Shown here in pieces: positions 24,585 to 63,453 of a stretch of DNA of 64,000 nt. The stretch is taken from the NCBI GenBank assembly GCA_026995935.1, contig JALWNK010000008.1, positions 1-64,000 on the forward strand, in the 5' to 3' direction. Origin of the DNA: Deltaproteobacteria bacterium. Lineage in GTDB: Bacteria; Desulfobacterota; Dissulfuribacteria; Dissulfuribacterales; QOAL01. How positions within the stretch are numbered: the first letter of the stretch is position 1; each line of letters starts with the position of its first letter. The notes beneath the pieces were generated by a model. That model had not been told where the DNA came from. It was given only the letters and a program-made list of their open reading frames with translations, and searched no databases. The translations under genes and the position numbers were made by a program.

Positions 24585-26072
24585 ATGGATACAGCTGTAT
24601 ATGCATTTTATGCCACTTTTTCGTTCGTATGTTCTTGTATTTTCTTGATTGCCTGTGGATTGGGACTGTATTCCCTTTATTTGACCAGACAGGGCGGCGA
24701 GATCCCCGAAGAAGCCAAGAAAAAGAATCTTTCATTTTTGTATAACAGAACCATAGGAATTGCATTTCTTATCGGTGGTATAATATTTGGCATAGCCGGT
24801 TACAGGATGTCTCCCAGTGCTGTGGCTGAAAGGATGGGTATCAGCCTGGAGGCGGAACATCATCCTGAAGAGGCAGTCCATAAAAAGGGACATCATGTGG
24901 TAAAGGCCGGGGAAGAAGTCAAGAAGGCAGAGGCCAAGAAGGAAGAAAAGGCACCTGCCAGGGTCGAGGAGAAAGAGGCCAAGAAAGAAGTAGCCCAGGT
25001 GGCCAAGGAAGAAAAGGCAGCAAAAGAGAAACAGCCAGGAGTTGAAGAGGTTGTAATGAGAAAGGCCGCTGGCTGGACCAAGACCGAGCTTGCTCTTAAA
25101 AAGACAATTTCTGTTTTGCAGGAACAACTCAAGTCCCTTAAGAAACAGGTGGAAGAGAAAACTGCCGCTGTTTCCAGCATGGGTGGTGAACTGGCCAAAT
25201 TGAAGGCGGAGGTTGAGAGTCTCAGAAAAGAGAATCAGGAACTCAAGGCTGTGGCCGGACAAGGAGGGGAGTTTAAGAAGGAGCTTGATGCACTCAAGAA
25301 GGAAAACCAGCAACTCAAACAGCAGATAGCCAAGCTTGAAGAGGCAAAGGCCGCCCTGGAAAAGGAGCTATCCGGAACAAAGGTTGGCTCTACAGCACTT
25401 AAAAATGCCCTTGAGGAGAATAAGGCGCTTAAGGCAAAGATTTCTGCCATGGATGCAGAGCTTGCCAAAAATGCCAAGATGATCGAAGAAACCAGGAATA
25501 AAATAAGTGAGCTAAGCGCCAAGTTGGCAGATGCCAAATCCAAGCTTATGGTCCTAGAAAGGGAAAGGGACCAACTGAGGGCTCAATTGGCAAGGGCCAG
25601 CAGCCCTGAGCTTCGAATAAAGTATCAGCAGGCTATTCAGGAAATTGAGGCACTCAAGGAAAAGAATCGCAGCCTTGAGCAAAGTCTCAAATCCCTGACA
25701 GATTCCCTGGATATGAAGATTATAGATCTTACAGAGCTCCAGTCCAAGTACGGTCTGCTCAAAGACCAGGCAAAATTCAGGGAAGAAAAGATCAACAAGC
25801 TTATGGAAGCCAACAAGGCTATGCAGGAGAGGCTTTCCCTGTACAATACCAGGATTCGCACCCTTGAGGCAGAGCTTAAGGCCAAGGACGATCTTATAAA
25901 GAAGCTACAGGAAAGGTTTGGTAACCAGGGAGGTGTCACTTCTGCTCCTGTTGCCCCCCAGGTCCAAAAGACCACTGTGATAAAAAAGATGGCTCCTGCA
26001 AAAAAGCAGGTAGCCAATGAGGCAGAAAAGGAAACGCCCAAGGAGGCAAAAACAACTGCTACCGGCAAATAA
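24585..26072 (+). CDS. Two-helix membrane protein with long cytoplasmic coiled coil
   Basis: Two membrane helices lie at about 8-32 and 53-75, joined by a short loop. A linker of Ala, Lys and Glu repeats (about 90-150) leads into a long coiled coil (about 165-455). The C-terminal tail is rich in Lys, Ala, Thr and Pro and probably disordered. The ribosome site AGGGAGGATTT lies before the ATG. The low-complexity linker resembles neither a signal nor an enzyme domain. It is probably co-transcribed with the upstream single-helix coiled-coil gene. Function unknown; a structural or spacing role at the membrane is possible. A strong terminator follows. Confidence 0.7.
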   Translation: MDTAVYAFYATFSFVCSCIFLIACGLGLYSLYLTRQGGEIPEEAKKKNLSFLYNRTIGIAFLIGGIIFGIAGYRMSPSAVAERMGISLEAEHHPEEAVHKKGHHVVKAGEEVKKAEAKKEEKAPARVEEKEAKKEVAQVAKEEKAAKEKQPGVEEVVMRKAAGWTKTELALKKTISVLQEQLKSLKKQVEEKTAAVSSMGGELAKLKAEVESLRKENQELKAVAGQGGEFKKELDALKKENQQLKQQIAKLEEAKAALEKELSGTKVGSTALKNALEENKALKAKISAMDAELAKNAKMIEETRNKISELSAKLADAKSKLMVLERERDQLRAQLARASSPELRIKYQQAIQEIEALKEKNRSLEQSLKSLTDSLDMKIIDLTELQSKYGLLKDQAKFREEKINKLMEANKAMQERLSLYNTRIRTLEAELKAKDDLIKKLQERFGNQGGVTSAPVAPQVQKTTVIKKMAPAKKQVANEAEKETPKEAKTTATGK

Positions 26073-26091: not shown

Positions 26092-26137
26092 AAAGTAAAA
26101 GGGCCGTAACGAAAAGCCGTTACGGCCCTTTTACTTT
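26092..26137. terminator. Strong bidirectional intrinsic terminator
   Basis: A 20-bp perfect stem (26092-26111 with 26118-26137) surrounds a 6-nt loop and ends in A and T tracts on its two sides. It separates the plus-strand coiled-coil operon from the minus-strand MptA-like operon and can serve both. Confidence 0.92.
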
Positions 26138-26182: not shown

Positions 26183-27127
26183 TTACAACTTCATTATATC
26201 TCCAAGAGGGCATTCAAGGGTACAGGATACGTTGTGATTGTGAATGCTTTCAAGGCTCGTTGTATGTATCCTGATAACGCTTTCAGGTGCCATTCTGCCA
26301 CCGAAACGTTTCCCAGCCTCAAAGGCCACTTCTCTGACGACGTCTTCAGCGAACTGTGGCTCACGGTGTGATTTCAGAACAAGCTCGGCCTCATCCGGCC
26401 TCTTCAAGAGGTCCTGGCTCATGTGCAGACAAGTGCAGAGGCACTGAACAAGCTCTTGGTGGGAAGGTGATTCATTGAAACTCGTCTCAATTTCCAGCCA
26501 CGTGATACAGCGTTGCGAGTGGGTAGGATAGGGGAATGAGACACCCTGGTTATTAAAAAGTTCCCTGTTATAGACCTGCGTACAGGGACACGCTGTAATA
26601 TGGGTAAGTCCAATGCCCGACAACTGCCTTGTGGAAACGCTATCCCCGCATTTCCTGACAACGGATTTTGAGGAAACCTGGAAAGAATCCAGGGAAATCT
26701 TGTTACTCACAGAAGTCCTAAGGATGAGGGGAATCTTTCCTGTCACCTTGACTTCAGCCACAGAGCCCTGCTGGTTCGTGAGAATGCTTTTCGCAAGACA
26801 GCTGGTGTAGGATCTTATATCATCGAAGGTGGTTTCAAACAGTTCGCTCATGGACTGTTCCATGCGTGACATGTGTATCCCCTTATATTGGGGAGGAAGG
26901 TCAACAAATATTTGTGCTTCAAAGGGTATCAGGCCCTGGGGCAGCCTTATCCAAACAGTCTTCTCAGTTATTCCAACCCTGTTTATGGCCAAAGGAAATC
27001 TGGGAGGGGCCTCTGGCACATCCTGACAACGGTCAACCACGGCCATATGCTGTGAATGAGAAAACCGGGGTCTTAAAGCAGTCCGTATTTTATTAGGGCC
27101 ATGTACCATTCTTGTACGCTTTTCCAT
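26183..27127 (-). CDS. MptA-like GTP cyclohydrolase (FolE2/GTP cyclohydrolase IV family)
   Basis: This is a divergent FolE2-superfamily protein. It has FVDLPPQYKGIHMSRMEQ (about 75-92), the catalytic-type Cys180 and Cys182 in LTHITACPCTQVYNREL, PTHSQR (201-206) and ESIHNHNVSC near the end. PTHSQR is close to the PTHNQR pattern I associate with archaeal MptA, which makes a cyclic phosphate of dihydroneopterin for methanopterin. Bacterial FolE2 has AHNQR, as does the copy at 10335. A Cys-rich insert (about 145-170) is unusual. The ATG at 27127 has AAAGGTGAC before it and overlaps the glycosyltransferase gene by 55 nt. It is the last gene of the operon. Confidence 0.8.
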   Translation of the reverse strand: MEKRTRMVHGPNKIRTALRPRFSHSQHMAVVDRCQDVPEAPPRFPLAINRVGITEKTVWIRLPQGLIPFEAQIFVDLPPQYKGIHMSRMEQSMSELFETTFDDIRSYTSCLAKSILTNQQGSVAEVKVTGKIPLILRTSVSNKISLDSFQVSSKSVVRKCGDSVSTRQLSGIGLTHITACPCTQVYNRELFNNQGVSFPYPTHSQRCITWLEIETSFNESPSHQELVQCLCTCLHMSQDLLKRPDEAELVLKSHREPQFAEDVVREVAFEAGKRFGGRMAPESVIRIHTTSLESIHNHNVSCTLECPLGDIMKL

Positions 27128-27882
27128 TTGTCACCTTTGTCCAATATCAGGTTTCTTGTTTTGTTAAGGTGCGTAAGGTAATCACATTTTCCTGCATTAC
27201 GGGCCATCTCTGTCAGTCTGTCCACAACGGTAATGGCCAGTTTCTGGGAAAATACTTTCCAGCAAAGGTTTCCCGAATGGATTTTCCGAACCGTTAACAC
27301 CGTGGGCTCAAAGCCAAACTCGTAACTAAGGGAAAGCCTGGCAAAAAAAAGCCAGTCTTCACCCAAGGGGACATTGGGGAAACCTCCAGCATGTAAAAAG
27401 GCCTCTTTCCGTACCGCCACGGAAGAAGGAACCAGACTGCACCACCTGAAAAGGTTCCATTCCATTGGCCTGTGCCTTTGAAATTCCCGGCCAGGAATAG
27501 TGAATGCGCTGTCAAGACATTGCCCCTGGTTAAGCGTAATGCCAAAGGAGCAGGCCTTCTTGCCATCCATGGCCTTAATGAGTTTTTCAACGTGGTCATC
27601 CCTCCAGGTGTCATCCGAATCAAGAAACATCAAGACTTCTGCCTCTGCAGCCATGGCACCAAGATTTCTTGCCCCGCCGGGCCCAAGGCTCCGGCCCTTT
27701 AAGAATTTTACCATGGGGAAGCGCTTCTGCACCAGTTCTCCGGTTCCGTCTGTTGAGCCGTCATCAACAACGATGACCTCATCTGGCAGACGCCCTTGGG
27801 CAAGGGCAGATTCTATGGCCTCTGATACCATGTGTCTCCTGTTCTTGACGGGGATAATGCAGGCTATTTTGTTATCTGGCAT
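27073..27882 (-). CDS. Family 2 glycosyltransferase
   Basis: A GT-A fold is clear from IACIIPVKNR at the N-terminus, VIVVDDGSTDGT, ARNLGAMAAEAEVLMFLDSDD with the metal-binding DSDD, and GEDWLFFARLS as the catalytic-base region. At 269 residues it is a single soluble domain with no membrane helix. The gene overlaps the PP-loop gene by 19 nt and the MptA-like gene by 55 nt, so it belongs to the same transcript. The acceptor is unknown. A small molecule made by the neighbouring enzymes is possible, as is an unrelated surface glycan. Confidence 0.88.
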   Translation of the reverse strand: MPDNKIACIIPVKNRRHMVSEAIESALAQGRLPDEVIVVDDGSTDGTGELVQKRFPMVKFLKGRSLGPGGARNLGAMAAEAEVLMFLDSDDTWRDDHVEKLIKAMDGKKACSFGITLNQGQCLDSAFTIPGREFQRHRPMEWNLFRWCSLVPSSVAVRKEAFLHAGGFPNVPLGEDWLFFARLSLSYEFGFEPTVLTVRKIHSGNLCWKVFSQKLAITVVDRLTEMARNAGKCDYLTHLNKTRNLILDKGDKWKSVQEWYMALIKYGLL

Positions 27883-28625
27883 CTGTTACCTGGAGGAAAG
27901 ATTTCGGCAGCCTCCTTGACCTGTCCATTTAAAGACAACTCAATAAAACGCTCAACCTTGGGTATCATTTCATCAAGATAGGCAAGTATGTGCTGTTCCT
28001 TTGCTGTGGTAAGTGTCTGGCAAAACATACACTTTCTCTCTCCTCCTCCGGTGGACGGAAGGCCAAAGTCTTCAAGGAGATGGCGCGCTATGTCTTCCTC
28101 AGTGAAGTCGTGGTAAAGGGGGTACCTGGTGGTTATTCCAAAACGTTCAGACACCTGCTGAAGGCGCTCCATAAAGGCGGGTGTCTGCTCCGGATAGTGG
28201 GACTGGCGGCTTGCATACCCGGCAAGAAGCAGGGGCACGTAGTTGGTTACGCAATAAATTATGGCCTTTGTGTGCATGGCAAGCTTACAGGCCACGCATA
28301 CAAGGTTTTTGCCCTGAAATTTTGGCATCAATATCTCGTAGGTATCGAGCCACAGCCCTTGGAAAAGCCTGCCCATGTCAAGTTCCACGAAAATTGAGGC
28401 TGGGCACTCATTAGAGGCTGGGTTCTGCCTTTCAAGTATGGCCTTTGCCACCTTAAAGCGGTTTTCTGGAAACTCGGGAAACCGCGCCATGCCGTTTAGC
28501 ATGTGAAGCAGGTGTACGTTTCTGGGCCTTGGAATTTCGCTGTGTCTTCCCCCCATTGAAAGGGCGTAGAGGGCAAGGCTATCACGCCCGCCAGAAAAAA
28601 GGATTGCAACGTCCTGTTTAACCAC
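27864..28625 (-). CDS. PP-loop ATPase with two CxxC motifs, unassigned subfamily
   Basis: The adenylating PP-loop SGGRDS is at residues 11-16. Two Cys pairs follow, CVAC (110-113) and CMFC (199-202), plus a Cys at 74. PP-loop enzymes activate a carbonyl with ATP for sulfur or nitrogen transfer. TtcA/TtuA-type tRNA thiolases carry paired Cys ligands for an iron-sulfur cluster, and QueC carries a Cys set at its end. The spacing here fits neither exactly. The gene overlaps the RibD-like gene by 8 nt and the glycosyltransferase by 19 nt. Its substrate may be a nucleotide or pterin made by these neighbours, which is inference. QueC seems less likely. Confidence 0.7.
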   Translation of the reverse strand: MVKQDVAILFSGGRDSLALYALSMGGRHSEIPRPRNVHLLHMLNGMARFPEFPENRFKVAKAILERQNPASNECPASIFVELDMGRLFQGLWLDTYEILMPKFQGKNLVCVACKLAMHTKAIIYCVTNYVPLLLAGYASRQSHYPEQTPAFMERLQQVSERFGITTRYPLYHDFTEEDIARHLLEDFGLPSTGGGERKCMFCQTLTTAKEQHILAYLDEMIPKVERFIELSLNGQVKEAAEIFPPGNRCQITK

Positions 28626-29271
28626 TGTTTTTCCCCTTTAGCACTTTGTATCTTAAAAAGAGTTCTCCTGTCCTTAGGTGACATTTGCAGGAGATAAGTT
28701 CAAGGTCAAGAAAGGGAGCACCCAGGTTTCTCTCGCCGTCAACCAGGGGGGTCTCCCTGTTTGATGTCAACAGCTTTGGGGCAACGGTTACAAGCATTTC
28801 ATCAACTATTCCCTGCTTTAGACAAAAGTAGTTGAGCCTACCGCCTCCCTCCACAAGGAGCCGGCTTACACCCTTATCCTTTAAAATTTCGCGGACCTGG
28901 CAAAGGTCAAGCTCATTTTCCTCCCTTTTCCTTACTGCCACAACCTCTGCCCTTCCTCCCAGGTGTCTTCTCAAGGAATTAGAGACATCCTGCCCACAAA
29001 AGACAATGGGGGACGGGCCACGGTTAAAGATGTTTTTTTCAAGGGGAAGCCTTCCAGACATGGTAATTATAGCCCTGATCCTTTTTTCTGGTATCCTTCC
29101 AGAGGTGTCACGAAATTCAGGGTCTCCTGCCCTAAGAGACCCTGCACCAAGTAGGGTTGCATGGGTAAGCTCACGCCACCTTTCAAGGAAACGGCGATCC
29201 TCTTTGCTGCCAAAGCCCGCTGGGGTTATTTTACCACAAAGTGTCTGGATACAGATGATGAATGTCTTCAA
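28618..29271 (-). CDS. RibD C-terminal/RIB7-like pyrimidine or pterin reductase
   Basis: This single-domain dihydrofolate-reductase-fold protein belongs to the RibD_C family. THATLLGAGSLRAGDPEFRD matches the substrate and cofactor loop, and the NADPH-binding block is VSRLLVEGGGRLNYF. DEMLVTVAPKLL is also typical. Bacterial RibD usually has an N-terminal deaminase domain, and this one does not. That layout matches archaeal RIB7-type diaminopyrimidine reductases, or the DHFR-like reductases of methanopterin synthesis. It begins 3 nt after ackA and overlaps the PP-loop gene. With an MptA-like enzyme in the same operon, a pterin or flavin-like product is plausible. Confidence 0.8.
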   Translation of the reverse strand: MKTFIICIQTLCGKITPAGFGSKEDRRFLERWRELTHATLLGAGSLRAGDPEFRDTSGRIPEKRIRAIITMSGRLPLEKNIFNRGPSPIVFCGQDVSNSLRRHLGGRAEVVAVRKREENELDLCQVREILKDKGVSRLLVEGGGRLNYFCLKQGIVDEMLVTVAPKLLTSNRETPLVDGERNLGAPFLDLELISCKCHLRTGELFLRYKVLKGKNSG

Positions 29272-29274
29272 TGT

Positions 29275-30498
29275 CTAGTCCGCAATCGTTTTCTGGCCTT
29301 TTTCCACCACCTTTATGGTCTGTCTTGCTATTTCAAGTTCCTCATTGGTGGGAATTACAAGGATTTTTATTGTGCTTTCAGGGGCGCTTAGATCAACCGG
29401 TTCGGAAGGCCCCGATCCTGCATTTTGATTTTTCTCTTTATCAAGCCTTATGCCCATGTGATCAAGGCCGTTTATCACCTTTTCCCTCACGATGCTTGAA
29501 TGTTCTCCTATACCCCCGGTAAAGACGATACAGTCGGTCCGGCCAATGGCGGCCAAATAGGCGCCAATGTATTTCCTTATGCGATAGCAGAATAGTTCCA
29601 GGGCCATGGCCGCATCCTGGTTCCCATCCTTTGCCATCTTTTCGATGGCCCTCATGTCCCTTGTCCCGCATAGGCCCTTTAGCCCACTATTGTTGTTCAA
29701 TAGCGTATCGATCTCGTAAACGGGCATGCCCAGGGTCCTGTGAAGATAAAAAATGATGGCAGGATCAATGTCCCCGCACCTTGTGCCCATGACAAGGCCT
29801 TCAAGGGGTGTAAGTCCCATTGATGTGTCAATGCATTTGCCGTTTTTGACGGCAGCCGCACTTGCCCCATTTCCCAGATGAAGACATATGGTTGAAAGTA
29901 TTGAAGGTTCTGTTCCAAGAAACCTTGCCGCCTGTCTGGTTACGTAACTGTAAGAGGTGCCGTGAAAGCCGTAACGCCGCACCTTGTGGTTGATGTAAAG
30001 CTCCTTGGGAATGGCATAGACAAAGGCGCAAGGAGGCATGCTCTGGTGAAAGGCCGTATCAAATACCGCCACCTGGGGAACATTTGGTGCATGTTCCATT
30101 GCAACCTTTATTCCGAGGAGATTTGATGGATTGTGCAAAGGTGCAAGGGGTATGAGTTCCTCTATGGCTTTTAACACCTGTTTATCCGCCAACACTGCCC
30201 CTGTGAAGTATTCGCCGCCATGCACCACCCTGTGGCCAACTGCGTAGAGATGAGACGTGCTTTCAACGATTTTTTCAGCCTTTAAAAGGGATGACATGAC
30301 CTCAAGGGCCTCGATGTGGGTTGGGGCACGGGCCGCGCCCTCTTTTATGTGTCCTTTGCCCATGACCTTAAAGGTATAGGATGAACACGGGGTTCCTATC
30401 TCCTGGATACTTCCCTCTGCCAGTACTTGCAGGCCATTTTTCGTAAAAACCTTGAATTTTAACGAAGAACTTCCTGAATTAAGTACGAGTATCTTCAT
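29275..30498 (-). CDS. ackA: Acetate kinase
   Basis: It interconverts acetyl phosphate and acetate with ATP. N-terminal LVLNSGSSSLKFKVF, the acetate-binding GHRVVHGGE, VFDTAFHQSMP, the GTSYSYVTRQAA region, and CLHLGNGASAAAVKNGK are all signature motifs. The length (407) is normal. No phosphotransacetylase gene is nearby. It is the first gene of the operon that continues with the RibD-like, PP-loop, glycosyltransferase and MptA-like genes. A terminator at 30555-30590 separates it from tkt, so a promoter must lie in 30499-30554, though none is clear. Confidence 0.96.
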   Translation of the reverse strand: MKILVLNSGSSSLKFKVFTKNGLQVLAEGSIQEIGTPCSSYTFKVMGKGHIKEGAARAPTHIEALEVMSSLLKAEKIVESTSHLYAVGHRVVHGGEYFTGAVLADKQVLKAIEELIPLAPLHNPSNLLGIKVAMEHAPNVPQVAVFDTAFHQSMPPCAFVYAIPKELYINHKVRRYGFHGTSYSYVTRQAARFLGTEPSILSTICLHLGNGASAAAVKNGKCIDTSMGLTPLEGLVMGTRCGDIDPAIIFYLHRTLGMPVYEIDTLLNNNSGLKGLCGTRDMRAIEKMAKDGNQDAAMALELFCYRIRKYIGAYLAAIGRTDCIVFTGGIGEHSSIVREKVINGLDHMGIRLDKEKNQNAGSGPSEPVDLSAPESTIKILVIPTNEELEIARQTIKVVEKGQKTIAD

Positions 30499-30554: not shown

Positions 30555-30590
30555 AATAAAAAAAGGCCGAGAAATTCCTTCCCGGCCTTT
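30555..30590 (-). terminator. Intrinsic terminator after transketolase
   Basis: Read on the minus strand, AAAGGCCG pairs with CGGCCTTT around a 13-nt loop and runs into seven Ts. It ends the pal-ompH-tkt unit. Confidence 0.85.
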
Positions 30591-46554: not shown

Positions 46555-47139
46555 ATGGATATTTTCCTGCACATCTGCTGCGGTCCGTGCGCCCTGTATC
46601 CCATTGGGGTACTTAAGGCCCAGGGAATGCATATAACAGGCTTTTTTTATAACCCCAATATTCACCCCTTCAGGGAGTATGAAAGGCGTGTTGAGGCCTT
46701 GGAAGAAGTGGCAAGGGTTAAGGACCTGCCCATTGTCTGGGATGGATCCGGTTACGGACTGAAAGATTGGCTATCTAGTTTGGACGGTGCAACTGCTCAG
46801 AAGGAGCGCTGCCCGCTTTGTTACGAAATGAGGCTTGAAAGGAGCGCAAAAGAGGCAAGAGATAGGGGCTTTAAATACTACTCCTCCACCCTTCTTTACA
46901 GCAAATATCAAAGGCATGGCCTCATCAGGGAGATAGGCCAGGAAAAGGCCCGGAAATTTGGAATAGAGTTTTACTACCAGGACTTTCGAAGGGGCTGGAT
47001 AGAGGGAATAGAGGAGGCAGTGGCCCTTGGAATATACAGGCAGCCTTACTGCGGCTGCATCTTTAGCGAATCAGAACGCTACGCAAAAAGGATAAAGAGG
47101 CTTTCTGATAGGTTAAAAGAAAGGCGAGAGGTCTTGTGA
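46555..47139 (+). CDS. queH: Epoxyqueuosine reductase QueH
   Basis: QueH catalyses the last step of queuosine synthesis and replaces cobalamin-dependent QueG. It is a small iron-sulfur protein with the Cys motifs seen here: HICCGPCALYP at residues 7-15, CPLCYEMRL near 86 and YCGCIFSE near 164. YYSSTLLYSKYQ is also typical. The length (194) is normal. The ATG follows at once on a promoter region shared with glgP. DUF2905 begins one base after its stop. Confidence 0.94.
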   Translation: MDIFLHICCGPCALYPIGVLKAQGMHITGFFYNPNIHPFREYERRVEALEEVARVKDLPIVWDGSGYGLKDWLSSLDGATAQKERCPLCYEMRLERSAKEARDRGFKYYSSTLLYSKYQRHGLIREIGQEKARKFGIEFYYQDFRRGWIEGIEEAVALGIYRQPYCGCIFSESERYAKRIKRLSDRLKERREVL

Positions 47140-51725: not shown

Positions 51726-52455
51726 TCCCCAGAAAGAGCTAAGCCTCACAGAGCACCTGGCAGAGCTAAGAACAAGGCTCATTCGCTCAATAGCCGCCGT
51801 GGCAGTGGGTTTTTGCATCTCTTACGCCTTTATTGAGCCGATCTTTGCCATGCTTTCAAGGCCCCTTGAAAAGGTGCTCCCCCCTGGTACAAGCCTGATA
51901 TTTACGTCCTATCCAGAGGCCTTTTTCACATATCTAAAGCTTGCCCTTGTCTGCGGGATATTCATTGCCAGCCCCTTCATCCTTTATGAAATATGGGCCT
52001 TTGTCGCCCCCGGGCTCTATGAACACGAAAAGAAATGGGCCCTTCCCTTTGTGGTCTTTTCAAGCATCTTTTTTGTTGGCGGCGCACTCTTTGGATACAT
52101 TGTGGTCTTTCCGGCAGCCTTCAACTTTCTTGCAGGCTATGCAGGCCGGGATCTCAAGCTGCTGCCAAGTGTTAGCGAATACTTTAGCCTTACAATAAAG
52201 CTTCTCCTTGGTTTTGGGGCGGCCTTTGAGCTTCCAATATTCATGGTGTTCATGGCACTCATAGGGCTAATAGATGCAAGGATGCTCAGGAAAAACAGAA
52301 AGTATGCCCTTCTTATAATCTTTATCCTTGCAGCAGTGCTTACCCCTACACCTGATGTGGTAAATCAGTGTCTCCTTGCAGCCCCCCTTCTGATCCTCTA
52401 CGAGATAAGCATCTTCCTTGTGGCCCTTATTGGCAAAAGGAGAGGATCTCCTTGA
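51709..52455 (+). CDS. tatC: Sec-independent protein translocase TatC
   Basis: TatC is the receptor for twin-arginine signals. Six membrane helices are present, with the N-terminal LTEHLAELRTRLIRS, which is the family signature, and FEP-like YAFIEPIFAML. FAPGLY is VAPGLYEHEKKWALPF here, as usual. No tatA or tatB gene is adjacent. The end overlaps the convergent alcohol dehydrogenase gene by 29 nt. The start overlaps the upstream peptidase gene, so coupling is likely. Confidence 0.95.
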   Translation: MTSDHDPQKELSLTEHLAELRTRLIRSIAAVAVGFCISYAFIEPIFAMLSRPLEKVLPPGTSLIFTSYPEAFFTYLKLALVCGIFIASPFILYEIWAFVAPGLYEHEKKWALPFVVFSSIFFVGGALFGYIVVFPAAFNFLAGYAGRDLKLLPSVSEYFSLTIKLLLGFGAAFELPIFMVFMALIGLIDARMLRKNRKYALLIIFILAAVLTPTPDVVNQCLLAAPLLILYEISIFLVALIGKRRGSP

Positions 52456-53599
52456 TGACGTTTTCGTTGTAATCATTCTCTATTCCCCAGATTCTTGACT
52501 GAAAGAGGGCGTTTTGGGCGATTTTTTCATGGTCTTTCTCTGGTATGTCAAGCTCAGAGAGACTTCTTGGGCATTCCACCTTTGAAAGCCACCTGCCAAA
52601 GGCATCAGCCGCTTCAAGGGCAGTGTCCTTCTCGTTGCCCTTGTCCGTGCAGCCAAGACACCTTATGCCAAACCAGGCCACCTTTTTTGCGCCTTTCAAG
52701 GTGGCCTTCCATTTCATCCATCCTGGAAGCAGTGCCGCCAGGCCTGCACCGTGAGGGATACCGTAGATTGCGCTCAGGGAGTGTTCTATCAGGTGAACCG
52801 GGAAGGGATGATCACCAACCCCGGCCCTTGTAAGCCCGTTTAGGGCAAGGGTTGCAGCCCACATGAGGGCCGCCCTTTGCTGGTAGTTTTCCGGTTCCTC
52901 CATGCACCTTTTTGTGGCAGGCATGAGGGTCCTTATTAAGCCCTCAGCTATCTCGTCCTGGACTGGGGTAAATGGGTCAGGGCCGTTGAAATAGGGCTCA
53001 AGCACATGGCAGATGGCGTCAACACCGCCATAGGCCGTATAATCTCTGGGAACGGTAAAGGTAAGCTCCGGGGCCAGAAAGGATATCCTGGGATAGGTAT
53101 GTGGCGAGCCAGCTGCAAGCTTATACCCGCTTTCTTCATTGGTTATCACCATAAATCCGTTCATTTCAGAACCAGAGGCTGCAAGGGTAGGGATGCATAC
53201 AACAGGAAGAGCCCCTGTTATCTCTCCTTTTCCCTCAAATACCTCCCATATGTCTCCGTCATATAAAGCGCCTGCGGCAACGGCCTTTGCCGTATCCATT
53301 ACGCTTCCACCCCCAAGGGCGACCAGAAAAGAGACTCCTTCCTTTCTTGCCATGCCTATTCCTTCATGCACCTTTGAAAGAACAGGGTTTGACTGCACCC
53401 CTGAAAGGTCGAGCACCTCTATGCCAGCCTCTTTCAGCTTGCTCTTCACCTGGTTATAAACGCCTGTTTCCCTGGCGCTTTTTTTCCCGGTTACAAGAAT
53501 GCATTTTTCTCCAAGGGCTCTGACCTCGTCTCCAAGCCTGTCAAGTATTCCTTTCCCAAATATGATCTTGGTGGGGTTACAAAATTCAAAGTTCTCCAT
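52427..53599 (-). CDS. Iron-containing alcohol dehydrogenase
   Basis: A group III dehydrogenase. The NAD-binding domain has KIIFGKGILDRLGDEV and VALGGGSVMDTAKAVA. The metal-binding domain carries AICHVLEPYFNG, HLIEHSLSAIYGIPHGAGLAALLPGW, with His and Asp ligands (AICHVLE, IEHSLS, GIPHG). It most resembles the butanol dehydrogenase/BDH branch that reduces aldehydes with NAD(P)H. The ATG has AAAAGGGAGGTG ahead. It is a single gene, convergent with tatC. Confidence 0.92.
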   Translation of the reverse strand: MENFEFCNPTKIIFGKGILDRLGDEVRALGEKCILVTGKKSARETGVYNQVKSKLKEAGIEVLDLSGVQSNPVLSKVHEGIGMARKEGVSFLVALGGGSVMDTAKAVAAGALYDGDIWEVFEGKGEITGALPVVCIPTLAASGSEMNGFMVITNEESGYKLAAGSPHTYPRISFLAPELTFTVPRDYTAYGGVDAICHVLEPYFNGPDPFTPVQDEIAEGLIRTLMPATKRCMEEPENYQQRAALMWAATLALNGLTRAGVGDHPFPVHLIEHSLSAIYGIPHGAGLAALLPGWMKWKATLKGAKKVAWFGIRCLGCTDKGNEKDTALEAADAFGRWLSKVECPRSLSELDIPEKDHEKIAQNALFQSRIWGIENDYNENVIKEILSFCQ

Positions 53600-54870: not shown

Positions 54871-55491
54871 TCATGACCTTGTCATGGCCTTTATCCTTTT
54901 AAGCTGGAAAAGGCCCTCCCTTTCCTTCTCTTCAAGGCTCTGCTCGATGAACTTTGCCGTTGCCTCGTAGAGGGGAATGTAGATGTAGGAAAGGGCATTT
55001 ATGCGTTTAAGGGTCCTTTTTGTCTCGCGCATGAGCCTTTGAAGTCCAATCTCCACCTCGGCTATCTCTGCAATGAGGTCCGAGGCAGATAGTATTATCT
55101 TTCTCACCTCATCCATGGTTGCAGTTGAGCCGCCTAGACCAAATTCGGGCCTGATAACGGGTTTTTTAATGGAGACAAGGGGAAGAACCACTCCCATGAG
55201 GCTCCTTTCCCTCACGGTGATCTCCATGCCCGCCTCCACTGAAAGCCCGGCTGCCTCGACGCTTGCCCTGCCCGATTCCAGGATTGCCTGTTCCAGCTTT
55301 TCATAGGCCCTGGAAAGTACCTCATCAAGCCTCTTGCGCGCCTGGTCCGCCCGGTCAGAAAGCAGGTTTATGTGGCCTATGAGTATGTCCTTTTTCTGCT
55401 CAAGAAGGTCCTTGCCATCCTTTGCTATGGCAAGTTCCTCCTTGATGCGTATTTCGTTACTCTTGGTTGCCGGAATGGGAAGTCTTTCCAT
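54871..55491 (-). CDS. atpD: A/V-type ATP synthase subunit D
   Basis: Subunit D is the central rotor shaft. It starts [34 protein letters not shown], typical of the family, and has two long helices (N-terminal about 10-65, C-terminal about 140-205) around a short middle part. The length (206) is normal. It overlaps the end of subunit B by 35 nt. Confidence 0.92.
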
Positions 55492-56875
55492 ATTTTTCTA
55501 TCTCTTCAGGGGTTACCCTGACAAGCTCGCTTTCAGGAAAGGTCATCACAAGCTCCCAGCCAAGGTCCAGGGTGTCGAAGATGCTCCTGTTCTCATCCCT
55601 TCCCTGGTTCACAAACTCCTGTTCAAATCGTTTGGAAAACTCAAAGTATTTCTTGTCAGTAACGCTAAGGTCCTCTTCGCCGATAATGGATGCCAGCCTC
55701 TCCACCTGTTTGGCCTTGGAATAGGCGGCGTACAACTGGCTTGAGATGTTTTTGTGGTCCTCCCTGGTCTTTCCCTCGCCAATCCCGTCACTCATTAGCC
55801 TTGATAGGGAGGGAAGGACGTTTACAGGCGGGTAGATGCCTTTACGGAACAGGGTCCTGTCCAGCACGATCTGTCCTTCGGTGATGTAGCCTGTAAGATC
55901 GGGAATGGGATGGGTAATGTCGTCGTCTGGCATGGTAAGTATGGGAATCTGGGTAACAGAGCCCTTTCGCCCGTGTATCCTCCCAGCACGTTCGTATATG
56001 GAGGCAAGGTCACTGTAGAGATAGCCTGGATAGCCCTTTCTGCTTGGCACCTCACCCTTTGATGTTGCAACTTCTCTTAGGGCCTCGCAGTAGTTTGTCA
56101 TGTCAGTAAGAATGACCAGGACGTGGAGCCCTTCCTCAAAGGCCAGGTACTCTGCTGCAGTAAGGGCAACCCGCGGGGCAATGAGCCTCTCAACCGCAGG
56201 GTCATCGGCAAGATTCAAAAACATGGCCACGTTGTTTAGTACCCCGCTTTCCTCAAAGCTCTTTCTGAAGGCCTCTGCCTCTTCATGGCGCACACCCATG
56301 GCTGCAAAGATCACGGCAAAGTTGCTCTCCTCTGTAAGGAGTCTTGCCTGTCTGACGATCTGCATGGCAAGGTCGTTGTGGGGAAGGCCGCTTCCAGAGA
56401 ATATTGGAAGTTTCTGCCCCCGTACCAGGGTGTTCATGCCGTCTATGGTGGAGATGCCTGTCTGGATGAAATCCTCCGGATAGGCCCTGGCAACGGGGTT
56501 TATGGGAAGGCCGTTTACGTTTCTGGCCTGGCCCTGAAAAGGAGGGGGGCCCCCGTCTATTGGTGCGCCAAGGCCGTTAAATATCCTGCCAAGGACCTCT
56601 TCTTTTGATACTACCATCTCAAAGGGCCTTCCAAGGAACCTGACCCTTGTCTTTTCCTGATCAAGGCCAGAGGTGCCATGGAAGACCTCAATAACTGCTG
56701 CCTCTCTGGAGATGGCAAGTACCCGGCCCTGCCTTGTCTCTCCAGAAGAGGTGACGATCTCCACCCTTTCCCCGTATCCAACGTCTTTTATCCCCTGTAT
56801 GACAACCAGGGGCCCCTGTATCTTGTCAAGGCCCATAAATTCAGGCCCTGGGGCCGTTACTGTTGTTGTATTCAT
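55457..56875 (-). CDS. atpB: A/V-type ATP synthase subunit B
   Basis: This is the regulatory, non-catalytic head subunit. It lacks a Walker A Lys; in its place [23 protein letters not shown]. Family blocks include [37 protein letters not shown] and [30 protein letters not shown] choose ATG 56875, 8 nt past the stop of subunit A with AAGG before it. The frame is open to 56932, but that start would overlap subunit A by 50 nt. Confidence 0.95.
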
Positions 56876-56882
56876 ATCTGTT

Positions 56883-58688
56883 TTACCTTGAAGACTCATG
56901 AGTCGGCTCCCTGCTCCTTTCCAAAAGGGCATCCATCTGCTGGTCTATTTCTGTCATGATTTCCAGAAAGGGTTCTGGTTCCTCCCCCTTTATGGTGTAC
57001 TTGGCCCTGTGTATCTTTTCCACAACAGGCAGCTCCATGGCCCTGAAAAGGGGAATCCGTGCAGAAACAATGTCATGGAGCCTCTTTATGAAGTGCATAA
57101 TGGTCTTTAACAGGTAAAACTGCTTAAGGGGCTGGCAGTAGGTATCAACCGGATCAAAGGCGCTTTGCTGCAGAAAGTCGTTCTTTATGAGCTTTGCCCC
57201 CTCGATGATCCGCCGCTGGTCATCTGGCAGTGCCTCCTCACCAAGAAGCTTGACGATGTTTTGAAGCTTGGCGTCCTCCTGGAGTATCTGAACCGCTCTT
57301 TCCCTGAGCTCCTGCCACTCAGGGCCTGTTTTTTCCGTCCACCAGTCTGACACTGCCGAGACATAGGCAGAGTAGCTTTCAAGATAGTTTATTGCAGGAA
57401 AGTAGCGTGCGCTTGCAAGTTCCTTGTCAAGGGCCCAGAAGCATTGGACAAAGCGCTTTGTGTGCATGGTGACAGGCTCGGAAAAGTCTCCTCCGGGTGG
57501 GGAGACAGCTCCGATGATGGAAACTGACCCCATCTCATCAGAAAGGGTCTGAACCCTGCCGGAGCGTTCGTAAAAGGCTGCAAGCCTGCTTGCAAGGTAG
57601 GCCGGAAAGCCTTCCTCTGCAGGCATCTCCTCAAGCCTTCCTGAGATTTCCCTAAGCGCCTCAGCCCATCTCGAGGTGGAGTCTGCCATGAGGGCAACAT
57701 CATAGCCCTGGTCCCTAAAGTACTCGGCCATGGTGATACCTGTGTAGATGCTTGCCTCACGGGCTGCAACGGGCATGTCTGACGTGTTTGCGATAAGTAC
57801 CGTCCTTTCAATGAGGGGTCTTTGGGTCCGTGGGTCAAGAAGCCTTGGGAAATCCGTCAAGACCCCTGTCATCTCGTTTCCGCGCTCGCCGCATCCTATG
57901 TAAATGATGATGTCCGCATCCGCCCACTTGGAAAGCTGGTGCTGGGTAACGGTCTTTCCCGTTCCAAAGCCCCCGGGTATGGCAGCAGTTCCACCCTTTG
58001 CAAGCGGAAAAAAGGTATCTATGACCCTTTGACCCGTAAGAAGGGGAACAGTGGGCATGAATCTTTTCCTGTATGGTCTGGGCATCCTGACTGGCCACTT
58101 ATGAAACATCCTGAGTGGCACTACAAGGCCGCTTTGGGTCTCAACCTCTGCAATCACCTCTTCAAGGGTGTAGTTGCCAGGGGGAACGATTCTTTTGACT
58201 TCCCCGGAGACATTGGGTGGCACCAGTATCTTGTGGGTGACCGCTTCTGTTTCTCTGACCTGGCCAAGTATCGTTCCGGCAGTTACCAGGCTTCCTGGCT
58301 GTATCTTTGGTTCAAAGCGCCATACCTTCTCTCGTGAAAGGGCAAAGGAGGTCTTTCCACGTTTAATGAAATCCCCCCATCTTTCCTTCAATACGTCAAG
58401 GGGCCTTTGTATCCCGTCAAATATCTGGCCAATGAGTCCAGGGCCAAGTTCCACGAAAAGGGGCATCTTCTGGCCTAAGACCTCTGTGCCAGGCTTAAGC
58501 CCGGTGGTGTCTTCATAGACCTGTATGGTGGCCGTATCCCCTTCAAGGCCTATGACCTCGCCAACAAGCCGTTGGGCGCCAACCTCCACCATCTCGTTCA
58601 TGGAAAGGAGATGGCCAGGGCTGGCCTTTACCACAGGTCCGCTAACAAAGGAGACAAGGGGTGTTTCCCTCTTTGGATTCTGCTTCAT
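56883..58688 (-). CDS. atpA: A/V-type ATP synthase subunit A (catalytic)
   Basis: The catalytic head subunit has the P-loop [11 protein letters not shown], the catalytic Glu-containing [10 protein letters not shown] block, the non-homologous insert region (about 115-185) that marks A/V-type A subunits, [33 protein letters not shown] and the C-terminal helical domain. It is 601 residues, full length. It overlaps the subunit E gene by 4 nt. Confidence 0.97.
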
Positions 58689-59317
58689 GATCCTTCACCG
58701 CTAAAGACCTTTTCTGCAACAAGGGCCCTTATCTCAGGCTCAAGCCTCTTTAAAAGGGCATCAAATGAAAAATCCACCATTCTTCTTCTATCAAGGCTGA
58801 AAACCAGGATACCTCCTTCTATTTCTGCCGGCTGCTCATCCACTTCAACCTCGATACCAAAGTCCTTTTCCGCCTCCCTGGCCGCCTCTTTTATCACCGG
58901 GATATCCCTTTGTGGTGCCTGAACCACCACCTTTCCTTCACCTTCACCGGCAACCACTGAAAGGGCGTTAACTATCATGGATTTGACCATGGCTTTGTAT
59001 GCCTCTGGTTTTTCTCTGGTCTCAAAGAGAAGGTCCCTTGCCTTATCCATCACCTTCTTGAATATCTCTTCCCGCGCTGCCATTATCATGCGCCTTGCTG
59101 CAAGCTCGGCCCCATCGGTTTTTCGTCGAGCGTCCTGGAAGGCCTGTCTCTTAAGCTCAAGCCTTTTTGCCTCAAGCTCCCTTTCTGCCTCTCTAAGCCC
59201 GCTAGAAAGGATGCGCTGGGCCTCCTTCTTTGCCTTCTCAAGTATCTTTTCCCCCTGGGAAGTGGCGCGTTTTTTGATTGCAAGGCAAAGAAGTTCTATG
59301 TTGTCAGGAAGTGGCAT
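58685..59317 (-). CDS. atpE: A/V-type ATP synthase subunit E
   Basis: This is a peripheral stalk subunit. The first 100 residues are a long charged helix (EKILEKAKKEAQRILSSGLREAERELEAKRLELKRQAFQDARR), and the C-terminal half is a compact domain ending in LLKRLEPEIRALVAEKVFSG. That layout is characteristic. It lies 2 nt from subunit F and overlaps subunit A. Confidence 0.88.
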   Translation of the reverse strand: MPLPDNIELLCLAIKKRATSQGEKILEKAKKEAQRILSSGLREAERELEAKRLELKRQAFQDARRKTDGAELAARRMIMAAREEIFKKVMDKARDLLFETREKPEAYKAMVKSMIVNALSVVAGEGEGKVVVQAPQRDIPVIKEAAREAEKDFGIEVEVDEQPAEIEGGILVFSLDRRRMVDFSFDALLKRLEPEIRALVAEKVFSGEGS

Positions 59318-59319
59318 TT

Positions 59320-59619
59320 TTACCTCCCAAGGATCGCTGCCATCTTTTCAACTGTTCTCTTTCTCTTCTTGGCAGGCCCTTTGGTGTCAGGAATTTCAAT
59401 GAAAAGGGGTATGTTCTTTTCCTCGGTGATCTGCTCAAAGACCTCTCCCGCCCTCTTTGCAAGCCTTTCTGTTACAAGGACAAGCCCTGTCTCAGCATCC
59501 CTTGAAAGGCCCTTTAAGATGGGGCCTGGGTCGTCATTTTCCTTCAAGGTATAAGTCTCTATGCCTGCAAGGCGGAAAGCTAGTGCCGTGTCAGGATCTG
59601 TTACGGCAACGATTTTCAT
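59320..59619 (-). CDS. atpF: A/V-type ATP synthase subunit F
   Basis: The 99-residue protein reads MKIVAVTDPDTALAFRLAGIETYTL at the start and LVLVTERLAKRAGEVF in the middle. It ends in a flexible helix (GPAKKRKRTVEKMAAILGR), as the central-stalk subunit F does. Its position between K and E is also as expected. Confidence 0.92.
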   Translation of the reverse strand: MKIVAVTDPDTALAFRLAGIETYTLKENDDPGPILKGLSRDAETGLVLVTERLAKRAGEVFEQITEEKNIPLFIEIPDTKGPAKKRKRTVEKMAAILGR

Positions 59620-59638
59620 GTCCCTTTCTCTCTAAGCT

Positions 59639-59971
59639 TTATATCTTTCCAAGGATCATTATGGCTATTATGAGCCCGTAGATGGCTATGCCCTCGGCAA
59701 GGCCTAGAAAAATGAGGGCGCGCCCCGTCACCTCTGGCCTTTCGCTTATGGCCCCAACTGCTGCTGCACCAACAAGGCCAACGGCAATGCCTGCGCCGAT
59801 GGTGGAGGCACCAACGGCAATGCCTGCGCCTATGTATCCCCAGTTGGCAGAGGTTCCAGAGACCTTCTGAGCCACCTCTGCACCTGCGGAAAGGACGGGA
59901 TAGGCCAGAGCCAAGAGGGAAAGAAGAAAGGGCCAGAGTAATTTTTTCTTTTGTTTTTTATGAAGAATCAT
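59639..59971 (-). CDS. atpK: A/V-type ATP synthase subunit K (membrane rotor ring)
   Basis: One hairpin of two helices: GYIGAGIAVGASTIGAGIAVGLVGAAAVG and ALIFLGLAEGIAIYGLIIAIMILG, joined by the ERPEVTG loop. The ion-binding Glu lies in LAEGIAIYG. Before the hairpin is an extra hydrophobic helix (LLWPFLLSLLALAYPVLSAGAE) that looks like a signal peptide. Sodium-type rings have extra Gln, Thr or Ser ligands next to this Glu, and these are absent, so H+ use is the simpler guess. It is 110 residues, a single-hairpin ring subunit. Confidence 0.9.
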   Translation of the reverse strand: MILHKKQKKKLLWPFLLSLLALAYPVLSAGAEVAQKVSGTSANWGYIGAGIAVGASTIGAGIAVGLVGAAAVGAISERPEVTGRALIFLGLAEGIAIYGLIIAIMILGKI

Positions 59972-59998
59972 GGCTCGCTTGTCCTCCTTGTAACGGGT

Positions 59999-62011
59999 TT
60001 ATTGCTTAAAGGCCCCTGTGGAAACGGCCTCTTTTTCAACCAGGGGCTTAAATTCCACTCCGCCGCCCCTGAAAAACTTGCTGAAAAATTCGTAGTACTC
60101 AAGACGTATGGTCTGAATGGATACAACCATGGCCTCAAGTACGATTATCACTATGTTTCCAATTATAAGGGTCAGGATGTAGCCAAGGCCCTTGTGGGTG
60201 CCATGGCTTACCATGTCTGCAATGGTAAAGACGCCAACAAAAAGCGCTGCATGGGTAAGGGCAAAGGCGGCAACACGGACAAAGGAGACTGTGTTTGCAA
60301 GGAACCTGAGCACACTGTCAAGGGCCTCGATGACAGACTCAAGTACCACCACAGACAGGGATGCCTGCTGGATGGCCTCTGTCCCAGGCCTTCCCTTCAT
60401 CCTCTTTCGTTTGATTATGGCCCTTAGAGGCCTTTCAACTATTATCACGAAAAGGAGTACTGCAGCCGTAACCACGGCAACGGTGCGTTCAACAGGGCCT
60501 GGTGGCCCCCAGGTGAGGTATCTAATGCCAATTCCGGCAAAGAGCCAGTAGAGCAAGGCACCGGCCAGTCCGCTTGCCGTAAAAAGCCTGTGGAATTCCC
60601 TTCTTTTGTAAATATTGATGAGATTTAGAATGAAACCCAGGCTTATCATGGCAACCCCCAGAACGATTGATACAAGCATGAATCTGTTTATGTCCTTCAT
60701 GGGATGAAGCCAAAGGGCTGGTATGAGGTCTTCCATTCCAAATACGCTTCCGTAGAGCACACCAAAAATCATGGAGGAGACACCGCACTCCATGAGTATG
60801 ATCCCGTAATCCATGTACTTGTAAAGCCTTTTGAACACGTAGAATCCGCCAAGGAAAAGGATGAGTCCGTGGCCAACATCGCCAAACATCATCCCAAAAA
60901 GGAGTACAAAGCTTATGGCCAGAAAAACGGTGGGTTCCACCTCCTCGTAAGTTGGGATTCCATACAAGGTGGTGAGCCTTTCAAAGGGCCTTATCAAAAG
61001 GGGATTGTTAAAGAGTATGGGAATCCTTATTATCCCCGATCTCACCTCCCTGATATCTTCAGGGTCTACACAGTCAACCAGGGCCTGGCCCCCCGTGGCC
61101 TTAAGGATTCTGTCTTTAAGTTTTTCGAAAAGATCAACCGGAACCCAACCCGTGAGCAGATATGTGTGGTCGATCTTCCCAAATTTGCTGGCTGCCTCAA
61201 GAAGGAGTCTTGCAAGGACCGCCTTTTCCCTGATTGCAAGGAGCCTTTGGCCGTAGCGTTTTCTTGCCTCCTCCTTTTTTTCTTCAGTTAGCCTTAATTT
61301 TTCCTCAAGGGGCTCAAGTTCGGCCTCGAGCCTTTCTATGATGGAAGATACCGTGCCCTTTAGATCTGAGGGGAATTCAAGCTCGTTAAAAAAGGCGCTT
61401 TTCAGGGAACGCTCAAGAACGGGCAGGTCTTCCTTGAGGCAAAAGGCAGCAAGTACCAGCTTTTCCCTTTGCTCTTGTATTCTTACAAGTGCGTGGTGAA
61501 TGTCAGAAAGGCTCTCCTCAAGCCTGTCAAGGTTTTCAGGTGGCATGATTCCGAAACGATAGGATGTGAAACGAAGGCCAAAAAGCCTGGAAAAGTCTAT
61601 TTCTGCAGGTACAAGGAGTCTCAGCCTCTCGATAAGCTCCTGTTTTTGGTTAAGTTGTCTTTCAAGGTGTCTACCTTCCTGGATGATTGGGTCAACTTTC
61701 CTGGTAATGTCAGAAAGTTCCTCTTCAAGGACGAAAATCTCCTTCTCAGGTCTCGGGGCCTTTTCAATTGGGGGAAGGGGGGCCTTTACAGAAAGCTCCT
61801 TTATGAGTTTATCTGCCTCCTGGGCCACCTTTTGATACCTGCCTATTAGATCGACCCTTGTGCCGGCGACGTAGCCGAGCCTGCCAAGATGTGTCTCGTT
61901 TATGTTTATCAGGTGAAGGAGTCTGAAATCTCCAAGTATTCCCAGCACATCGGACATGTACTTTTCTGGAACCTGTATGGTTATTCTGAAGAGCTTTGCT
62001 GGCCTGAACAA
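59999..62011 (-). CDS. atpI: A/V-type ATP synthase subunit I
   Basis: This stator subunit couples ion flow to rotation. The N-terminal half (1-330) is a soluble, helix-rich arm with long coiled coils (LEEELSDITRKVDPIIQEGRHLERQL). The C-terminal half has seven or eight membrane helices. The conserved essential Arg region appears as LRFLANTVSFVRVAAFALTHAALF near residue 600. Length (670) is normal. The C subunit gene precedes it by 4 nt. Confidence 0.93.
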   Translation of the reverse strand: MFRPAKLFRITIQVPEKYMSDVLGILGDFRLLHLININETHLGRLGYVAGTRVDLIGRYQKVAQEADKLIKELSVKAPLPPIEKAPRPEKEIFVLEEELSDITRKVDPIIQEGRHLERQLNQKQELIERLRLLVPAEIDFSRLFGLRFTSYRFGIMPPENLDRLEESLSDIHHALVRIQEQREKLVLAAFCLKEDLPVLERSLKSAFFNELEFPSDLKGTVSSIIERLEAELEPLEEKLRLTEEKKEEARKRYGQRLLAIREKAVLARLLLEAASKFGKIDHTYLLTGWVPVDLFEKLKDRILKATGGQALVDCVDPEDIREVRSGIIRIPILFNNPLLIRPFERLTTLYGIPTYEEVEPTVFLAISFVLLFGMMFGDVGHGLILFLGGFYVFKRLYKYMDYGIILMECGVSSMIFGVLYGSVFGMEDLIPALWLHPMKDINRFMLVSIVLGVAMISLGFILNLINIYKRREFHRLFTASGLAGALLYWLFAGIGIRYLTWGPPGPVERTVAVVTAAVLLFVIIVERPLRAIIKRKRMKGRPGTEAIQQASLSVVVLESVIEALDSVLRFLANTVSFVRVAAFALTHAALFVGVFTIADMVSHGTHKGLGYILTLIIGNIVIIVLEAMVVSIQTIRLEYYEFFSKFFRGGGVEFKPLVEKEAVSTGAFKQ

Positions 62012-62015
62012 GCCT

Positions 62016-63074: not shown

Positions 63075-63129
63075 TTTAGACCTCCTATTAAGCTGTCTCT
63101 GCCTTGAAAGGGTCTATTTCAGATCTAAT

Positions 63130-63453
63130 CTACGAAAGGGTAATAGCCCTTTTCACAAGTTTTGAAAGCTCCTCTTCCATTGCCCTTTCGGTTTTGGAAT
63201 ACCTATTTTTGAGCTCGTTACAGTAATACTCTGCCTCTTTTTTGATCTTGGCAGCCCTTTCTTCAGCCTCTTTTATTATCTTGGCAACCTCGTCCTGTTT
63301 GAATTTTTCAAGCTCTTCTGAAAGGGACTCCTTGGCCTTTAAGACTTGCCTTTTTGCTTCCTTCAAAACCCTTTGCGATTCTTCCTGGGCCTTTAATAAA
63401 ATTTCCTGCCCAGCCATGTCACAGGCGCAAATTCTTTCCAGCTCTTCCTTCAT
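63130..63453 (-). CDS. A/V-type ATP synthase subunit H-like coiled-coil protein
   Basis: A 107-residue, almost entirely helical protein with heptads of Lys, Glu and Ala, matching the H (G-like) peripheral-stalk subunit that pairs with subunit E. It starts MKEELERICACDMAGQEILLKAQEESQRVLKEAKRQ, and ends RAITLS. The gene is first in the operon, 55 nt before subunit C, as in many A/V-ATPase loci. The ATG has AAAAAGGAGC before it. Confidence 0.82.
   Translation of the reverse strand: MKEELERICACDMAGQEILLKAQEESQRVLKEAKRQVLKAKESLSEELEKFKQDEVAKIIKEAEERAAKIKKEAEYYCNELKNRYSKTERAMEEELSKLVKRAITLS

Follow-up and report, generated by a model that had tools for sequence, protein, structure and literature searches.

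A co-inherited cyclohydrolase, reductase and PP-loop gene set in Desulfobacterota that may serve synthesis of a thiolated pterin

We analysed a 64,000-nucleotide stretch of DNA, hereafter the window, from the Deltaproteobacteria bacterium assembly GCA_026995935.1 (GTDB order Dissulfuribacterales; contig JALWNK010000008.1, positions 1 to 64,000 of the forward strand), in which four overlapping genes encode a RibD_C/RIB7-like reductase (RIB7L), a PP-loop protein (PPL), a family 2 glycosyltransferase (GT2) and a divergent cyclohydrolase of the FolE2/MptA family (FolE2L; Table 1). A sequence-only reading of this DNA had placed directly after the acetate kinase gene ackA four minus-strand genes with overlaps of 8, 19 and 55 nt, and the open reading frame (ORF) coordinates agree exactly with that description. 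Purine-rich, Shine-Dalgarno-like sequences lie upstream of the GT2, FolE2L and, most clearly, PPL starts. The 55-nt overlap between GT2 and FolE2L is the least certain of the three, because FolE2L residues 1-10 are modelled with low confidence and relatives without GT2 start later. A perfect 20-bp hairpin separates FolE2L from a convergent plus-strand gene (24585-26072), and, given this hairpin 3' of FolE2L and another upstream of ackA, ackA, RIB7L, PPL, GT2 and FolE2L are likely to form one transcript, in that order.

Table 1. Genes and predicted transcript signals of the module and its immediate surroundings in the window
Feature	Position	Strand	Remarks
RIB7L, RibD_C/RIB7-like reductase, 217 aa	28618-29271	-	TTG start; ORF and profile
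PPL, PP-loop (adenine nucleotide alpha-hydrolase) protein, 253 aa	27864-28625	-	GTG start; SGGRDS motif
GT2, family 2 glycosyltransferase, 269 aa	27073-27882	-	ATG start; DSDD and GEDW motifs
FolE2L, divergent GCHY-1 (FolE2/MptA-family) cyclohydrolase, 314 aa	26183-27127	-	ATG start
ackA (acetate kinase), first gene of likely transcript	29275-30498	-	ORF
Hairpin, perfect 20 bp with T-tail, likely terminator	26092-26137	none assigned	Fold energy -33.5 kcal/mol, z = -9.7
Terminator-like hairpin, 13 bp, between tkt and ackA	30562-30590	-	Upstream of ackA

RIB7L, PPL and FolE2L constitute a co-inherited functional unit whose genes act together, a conclusion that we hold with very high confidence. 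Across three genome sets, comprising more than 130 genomes from two orders, the three genes occur or are missing jointly. PPL was found in 33 of 46 surveyed genomes of the window's class and in 65 of 243 genomes of a second order, around Desulfurivibrio. When 40 genomes of this second order with PPL were compared with 40 without it, RIB7L orthologues were detected in 34 versus 0, and FolE2L in 34 versus 0. Pooled counts, compiled by hand from the three sets with decayed PPL placed in the "without" class, gave RIB7L in 71 of 74 genomes with intact PPL versus 0 of 58 without (Fisher 2.5e-34), and FolE2L in 72 of 74 versus 2 of 58 (Fisher 3e-32), counts and p values that both ignore phylogenetic kinship. 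The two FolE2L exceptions (G030 and G034) are metagenome-assembled genomes (MAGs) with a completeness of 86-89%. Sampling the phylum evenly (395 genomes) yielded the same picture: 19 carried intact PPL, and the identical 19 carried a FolE2L orthologue (called at >350 bits, the next family scoring 94).

The association also persists where the genes are unlinked, on separate contigs or at distant positions in G001, G002 and G003 (three contigs in G001), and at 364, 884 and 1550 kb for GT2, PPL and FolE2L in G234. Elsewhere the order RIB7L-PPL-GT2-FolE2L is the same across many genera of both orders while the flanks differ; adjacency to ackA and tkt is confined to the window's genus, with one further locus (L037) in the case of ackA. 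The neighbourhood is thus conserved independently of ackA, which the sequence-only reading had singled out as a point to check. The specific GT2 orthologue (>190 bits, against a background of at most 136) was present in 30 of 40 module genomes, unlinked in several of them, and essentially nowhere else. GT2 thus counts as a genuine fourth member that the module can do without, and most of one family lacks it. A scan of GTDB contigs returned only close relatives, the named ones being Deltaproteobacteria, Desulfobulbaceae and Desulfurivibrio MAGs.

Loss of the module is likewise shared among its genes. In G039, RIB7L contains stops, PPL and GT2 are truncated and FolE2L is absent, and only module fragments are left in G036, G037 and G424. 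What looks like a RIB7L remnant in G032 is cut by the end of its contig and was not taken as a case of decay. Four genomes (G466, G488, G505 and G570; loci L139, L141, L142 and L143) retain a lone PPL after loss of RIB7L and FolE2L, and in each of these copies otherwise invariant residues have changed, including D15N, K114N, H118Y and the PEQ motif, or G13D. The related G488, G505 and G570 show changes at 10-11 of 73 otherwise invariant sites, with D15N in two of them, and the PP-loop of G466 carries G13D, whereas PPL with intact partners shows 0-3 changes at the same 73 sites, mostly conservative. Judged from these substitutions, the lone copies would be either degenerating genes or genes of changed function, and selection appears to act on PPL only alongside its partners, because catalytic residues are lost where RIB7L and FolE2L are gone.

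Several recurrent neighbours were considered as further components and rejected. DUF166 (PF02593), found beside FolE2L in several genomes, occurs without the module and is missing from three complete module genomes, and the recurrence of a SYLF (Ysc84) lipoprotein, an iron alcohol dehydrogenase, the CCA-adding enzyme, glycogen phosphorylase and a ParB-like protein is limited to particular lineages. In Dissulfuribacterales-type genomes (L038, L046, L049, L100, L101, L105-L108 and L118), the SYLF lipoprotein gene repeatedly lies immediately ahead of RIB7L or GT2, with DUF166 immediately behind FolE2L, even where the module is split. The window itself encodes an iron alcohol dehydrogenase (52427-53599, minus strand) 25 kb from the module, which is similar to the FolE2L-adjacent enzyme of L038, L047, L049 and L057. 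In G186 (L085:9548-15255), PPL and FolE2L are split by an insert that resembles a restriction-modification system and encodes a 758-aa DNA methylase, a 240-aa ORF and an 897-aa helicase-like protein. Use of the module as a marker of sulfur disproportionation was also rejected: known disproportionators are among the carriers, but carriage is patchy within both orders. Farther along the window, a V/A-type ATP synthase gene cluster occupies 54871-63453 on the minus strand (subunit I matched its profile below the cut-off and the rest was recognised by eye), and a PADLOC search for defence families returned no match.

FolE2L and RIB7L fall under every curated cut-off for FolE2, MptA, RIB7 and RibD. 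FolE2L matches Pfam GCHY-1 (4.3e-46; 158 bits vs a gathering score of 25) and reaches 145 of the 220 bits set by NCBIfam for the MptA equivalog and 103 of the 215 set for FolE2. Its model is closest in fold to GTP cyclohydrolase IB, represented by bacterial FolE2 structures (E 1.9e-17), with no MptA structure among the structural matches listed. With the fold nearest to bacterial FolE2 and neither equivalog threshold reached, the earlier label of an "archaeal-type MptA" proves too specific. Cyclohydrolase residues are kept (CPC, His203, Glu261 and ESIH), and C180, H203, E261, E293 and H296 align to C147, H159, E216, E243 and H246 of the Neisseria gonorrhoeae enzyme, which we take to be the metal and catalytic residues of FolE2. 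RIB7L matches Pfam RibD_C (1.7e-22; 80.7 bits vs a gathering score of 24.1), scores 94 bits against the NCBIfam archaeal RIB7 model (cut-off 186), and by profile is nearest to archaeal RIB7 structures (PDB 2azn and 6p8c); all 58 of its 58 orthologues carry Cys12, which replaces the Asp of the RIB7/RibD "DGK" motif. GT2 matches Glycos_transf_2 (2.7e-28; 99 bits vs a gathering score of 23), and has a DSDD motif, whose aspartates are kept in 47/47 sequences, and a GEDW motif (alignment A5).

A separate canonical FolE2, previously placed at window position 10335, does pass the curated FolE2 threshold, and another contig of the same genome encodes a canonical RibD. Both enzymes are also present in nearly all module genomes tested, so FolE2L and RIB7L are not the sole folate or riboflavin enzymes of these cells, and the module is additional to the ordinary ones. 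This separation of the canonical enzymes agrees with the suggestion of the sequence-only reading that a canonical FolE2 would leave the module's copy free for a special product. That reading was to be abandoned if the genes did not co-occur elsewhere or if their proteins clustered with ordinary enzymes; what we find is a co-inherited set of proteins that score below the curated cut-offs.

PPL itself has no significant family match among Pfam and NCBIfam profiles. Residues S11, G12, G13, D15, S16, C110, C113 and C199 are invariant in 60/60 sequences, while C202 is kept in 56/60 and replaced by Ser in 4/60. Both of the paired CxxC motifs noted earlier are present, but the second amounts to one essential cysteine (C199), C202 being dispensable. 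The AlphaFold (AF2) model (pLDDT, the predicted local distance difference test score, of 88.7) is nearest to YcfA of Erwinia amylovora (PDB 9kq7; Foldseek 5e-14, TM 0.76/0.88), for which structures with ATP and with GTP are available (PDB 9kq7, 9kq9 and 9kqd). The next entries in the Foldseek list, TrmU, TtuA, QueC, LarE and NcsA, score from about 1e-5 to 1e-4. YcfA is also the sole significant PDB relative of PPL by sequence, and comparison with YcfA/TgsB gave 1.7e-9 by phmmer and 5e-12 by tblastn.

These matches bear on what PPL might install. The presence of QueC in the Foldseek list (3.7e-5), together with the fact that PP-loop enzymes perform both sulfur and nitrogen chemistry, would allow PPL to install nitrogen as an amide, amine or nitrile, in the manner of QueC, GuaA or NadE, giving an amidated pterin or deazapurine from a queuosine-type side branch. 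FolE-type, PP-loop and reductase enzymes act together in preQ1 synthesis, which counts in favour of such a route. We nonetheless consider it unlikely, as the nearest relatives by both sequence and fold are 6-thioguanine synthases, YcfA standing 8 to 9 orders of magnitude above QueC, the three-cysteine pattern is typical of iron-sulfur (Fe-S) sulfur inserters, no QueD- or QueE-like conserved neighbours were seen, and PPL has no QueC Pfam match at E<=1. Where the sequence-only reading had left thiolation and amidation side by side, thiolation is now favoured and amidation disfavoured, because the closest homologue of PPL makes 6-thioguanine. The same homologue speaks against a different account, in which PPL thiolates tRNA (or another RNA or a protein) and FolE2L, RIB7L and GT2 merely share its transcript as paralogues of enzymes of folate, riboflavin and cell-wall synthesis. 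Such a role would fit the three-cysteine pattern common to TtcA, TtuA and NcsA and the listing of TtuA and NcsA among the Foldseek matches. It is nevertheless very improbable in view of the way in which all the genes are inherited and decay together, even without linkage, the 253-aa length of PPL, which leaves little room for an extra RNA-binding or zinc-finger domain, and the closeness of PPL to a small-molecule enzyme. Assignment of PPL to a known tRNA enzyme, an outcome that the sequence-only reading had allowed for, is thus not borne out.

Homology to YcfA/TgsB also raises the question of an antimetabolite. Plasmid-borne relatives of PPL are of the tgs type only and include TgsB of the staphylococcal 6-thioguanine operon, in which the order of genes agrees with the published one (PMC7994395). 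Two further TgsB-like plasmid genes were found, one of them adjoining NUDIX, transporter and HAD genes. The first, on plasmid pDSM3922.1 of Alicyclobacillus acidoterrestris, a Bacillus relative from soil (L136:6001-8711), belongs to a run of a TgsB-like gene, NUDIX, DMT transporter and HAD that is probably a 6-thioguanine operon without the pyridoxal phosphate (PLP) enzyme. In the second, on plasmid pSNUTY1 of the marine Vibrio coralliilyticus (L137:6019-9768), three genes with no annotation beyond "hypothetical" come after a YcfA/TgsB-like PP-loop gene, which possibly represents another thioguanine-type cluster. A search of IMG/VR found no PPL relative. On this homology the module could be thought to make a 6-thioguanine-type compound for competition rather than a cofactor, which we regard as improbable: the remaining genes of the tgs operon (PLP enzyme, NUDIX, efflux and HAD) are not among the conserved module neighbours, neither FolE2L nor RIB7L is known to take part in making 6-thioguanine, and PPL, unlike the plasmid-borne operon, evolves very slowly (mean column identity 72%, alignment A1) and is inherited mostly within families, according to a tree that resolves the families and leaves the deep order of the two bacterial orders without resolution. 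Separately, we noted a remote PP-loop family of 275-304 aa with the motif CLQCKIAMH (L091:7549-8460, L092 and L093, in G221, G228 and G250) that keeps the CxxC, lacks the PEQ motif, matches no Pfam model over its cut-off and is distant from YcfA (phmmer 1e-4); as we read it, this may be another uncharacterised Fe-S-type PP-loop enzyme.

Taken together, these observations lead us to favour, by a modest measure, a reading in which the module is a new GTP-derived pathway to a thioamide-bearing (4-thio) reduced pterin or pyrimidine, usually glycosylated. PPL would use ATP to adenylate a ring oxo group, either C6=O of GTP or C4=O of the derived pterin, and substitute sulfur from sulfide held on a putative three-cysteine [4Fe-4S] cluster; FolE2L, as a GTP cyclohydrolase, would open and reclose the imidazole ring; RIB7L would use NAD(P)H to reduce the pyrimidine or pterin so formed; and, in most lineages, GT2 would attach a sugar. 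The scheme sets no fixed order for its first reactions. By analogy with YcfA/TgsB, PPL would most simply be taken to thiolate a guanine-like ring using cluster-bound sulfide rather than a PLP desulfurase-like partner, which would suit sulfidic anaerobes. Taken separately, derivation of the product from a guanine nucleotide is likely, and sulfur is probably installed rather than nitrogen, with somewhat less assurance. A pterin- or pyrimidine-derived product could also arise with PPL acting otherwise, for instance by adenylation for ligation or by metal insertion, since PP-loop enzymes are diverse and the nucleophile is a prediction only; we think this improbable, as no three-cysteine Fe-S PP-loop enzyme with such a role is found among the structural neighbours listed.

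A number of points weigh against the thiolated-pterin pathway. Its enzyme activities, Fe-S cluster and product are all predictions from genes, the surveyed genomes all belong to a single phylum, Desulfobacterota, and the co-occurrence statistics are blind to kinship, as said above. YcfA and TgsB use a PLP cysteine desulfurase-like partner and lack the three cysteines, so the substrate or nucleophile of PPL may be a different one; their identity to PPL is only about 25%. The intermediate on which RIB7L acts could come from a source other than FolE2L. Glycosylation cannot be essential to the core product, because GT2 is absent in about one quarter of module genomes; where the sequence-only reading had included glycosylation in its proposed product, the glycosyltransferase proves to be an optional member. 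More tentatively still, and with the odds rather against it, the product may represent a new cofactor class, a 4-thio (thioamide) tetrahydropterin, often glycosylated, that an Fe-S enzyme akin to the thioguanine synthases, a divergent cyclohydrolase and a RIB7-like reductase would make from GTP and that would serve an enzyme or metal centre in the anaerobic, sulfur-cycling Desulfobulbales and Dissulfuribacterales.

Within open-access full texts, we found no paper that joins these families and no thiopterin biosynthesis, and the gene set appears undescribed there. That a three-gene core is kept or lost as one, with PPL decaying without its partners, points to one valued product with no assigned place in the metabolism of folate, riboflavin, queuosine or molybdopterin. 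Should that product prove to be a thiolated pterin, it would represent a new type of sulfur-containing cofactor, connect the enzymes of an antimetabolite (6-thioguanine) with a role long inherited among anaerobes, and offer a concrete way into the physiology, so far poorly understood, of bacteria that disproportionate sulfur. The module is testable in two cultured carriers with complete genomes, Desulfurivibrio alkaliphilus AHT2 (G234) and Dissulfurimicrobium hydrothermale Sh68 (G031).

Among known systems, the closest to PPL are YcfA of Erwinia amylovora and TgsB of Staphylococcus chromogenes, which are homologous in PP-loop fold and in sequence: the alignment shares the PP-loop, K-x-A-x-H, Q141 and Q147, and the PEQ block is also found in YcfA. 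They differ in having no cysteines equivalent to C110, C113 and C199, and in their partners, a PLP desulfurase-like protein, NUDIX, HAD and efflux for YcfA/TgsB versus FolE2L, RIB7L and GT2 for PPL. The cysteines instead recall TtcA and TtuA, in which three of them (CxxC plus one) hold a [4Fe-4S] cluster thought to present sulfide (PMC6772006), and the thioamide synthetase CtaC of closthioamide synthesis, with a three-cysteine [4Fe-4S] pattern (PMC6225789). PPL resembles TtcA/TtuA/Ncs6 and CtaC in combining an SGGxDS PP-loop with three conserved cysteines (CxxC...C), but its fold match to TtuA/NcsA is weak (TMq 0.41-0.47) and the lengths differ, TtcA and CtaC are not among its listed structural matches, and its partners are a cyclohydrolase and a reductase where those enzymes have tRNA or non-ribosomal peptide synthetase genes. 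FolE2L shares the GCHY-1 family and its residues with FolE2 and MptA, but at only about 22-24% identity and while coexisting with canonical FolE2. RIB7L likewise shares the RibD_C fold family and the EGGGxLN motif with RIB7/ArfC and the C-terminal reductase domain of RibD, and departs from them in the "DGK" Asp to Cys change, in an altered "DDPxLT" region and in coexisting with a full-length RibD. The overall logic, a cyclohydrolase, a PP-loop enzyme and a reductase working from GTP, is that of the queuosine/preQ0 pathway (FolE, QueD, QueE, QueC and QueF). By inspection, no que genes adjoin the module in the window, and QueD and QueE are not among the conserved module neighbours; a QueH-type candidate with a CCGPC motif, recognised by eye and without an NCBIfam match, lies at 46555-47139 on the plus strand, which suggests that queuosine is made independently of the module. 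The best explanation of these likenesses and differences is a module separate from folate, riboflavin and queuosine synthesis and from tRNA thiolation.

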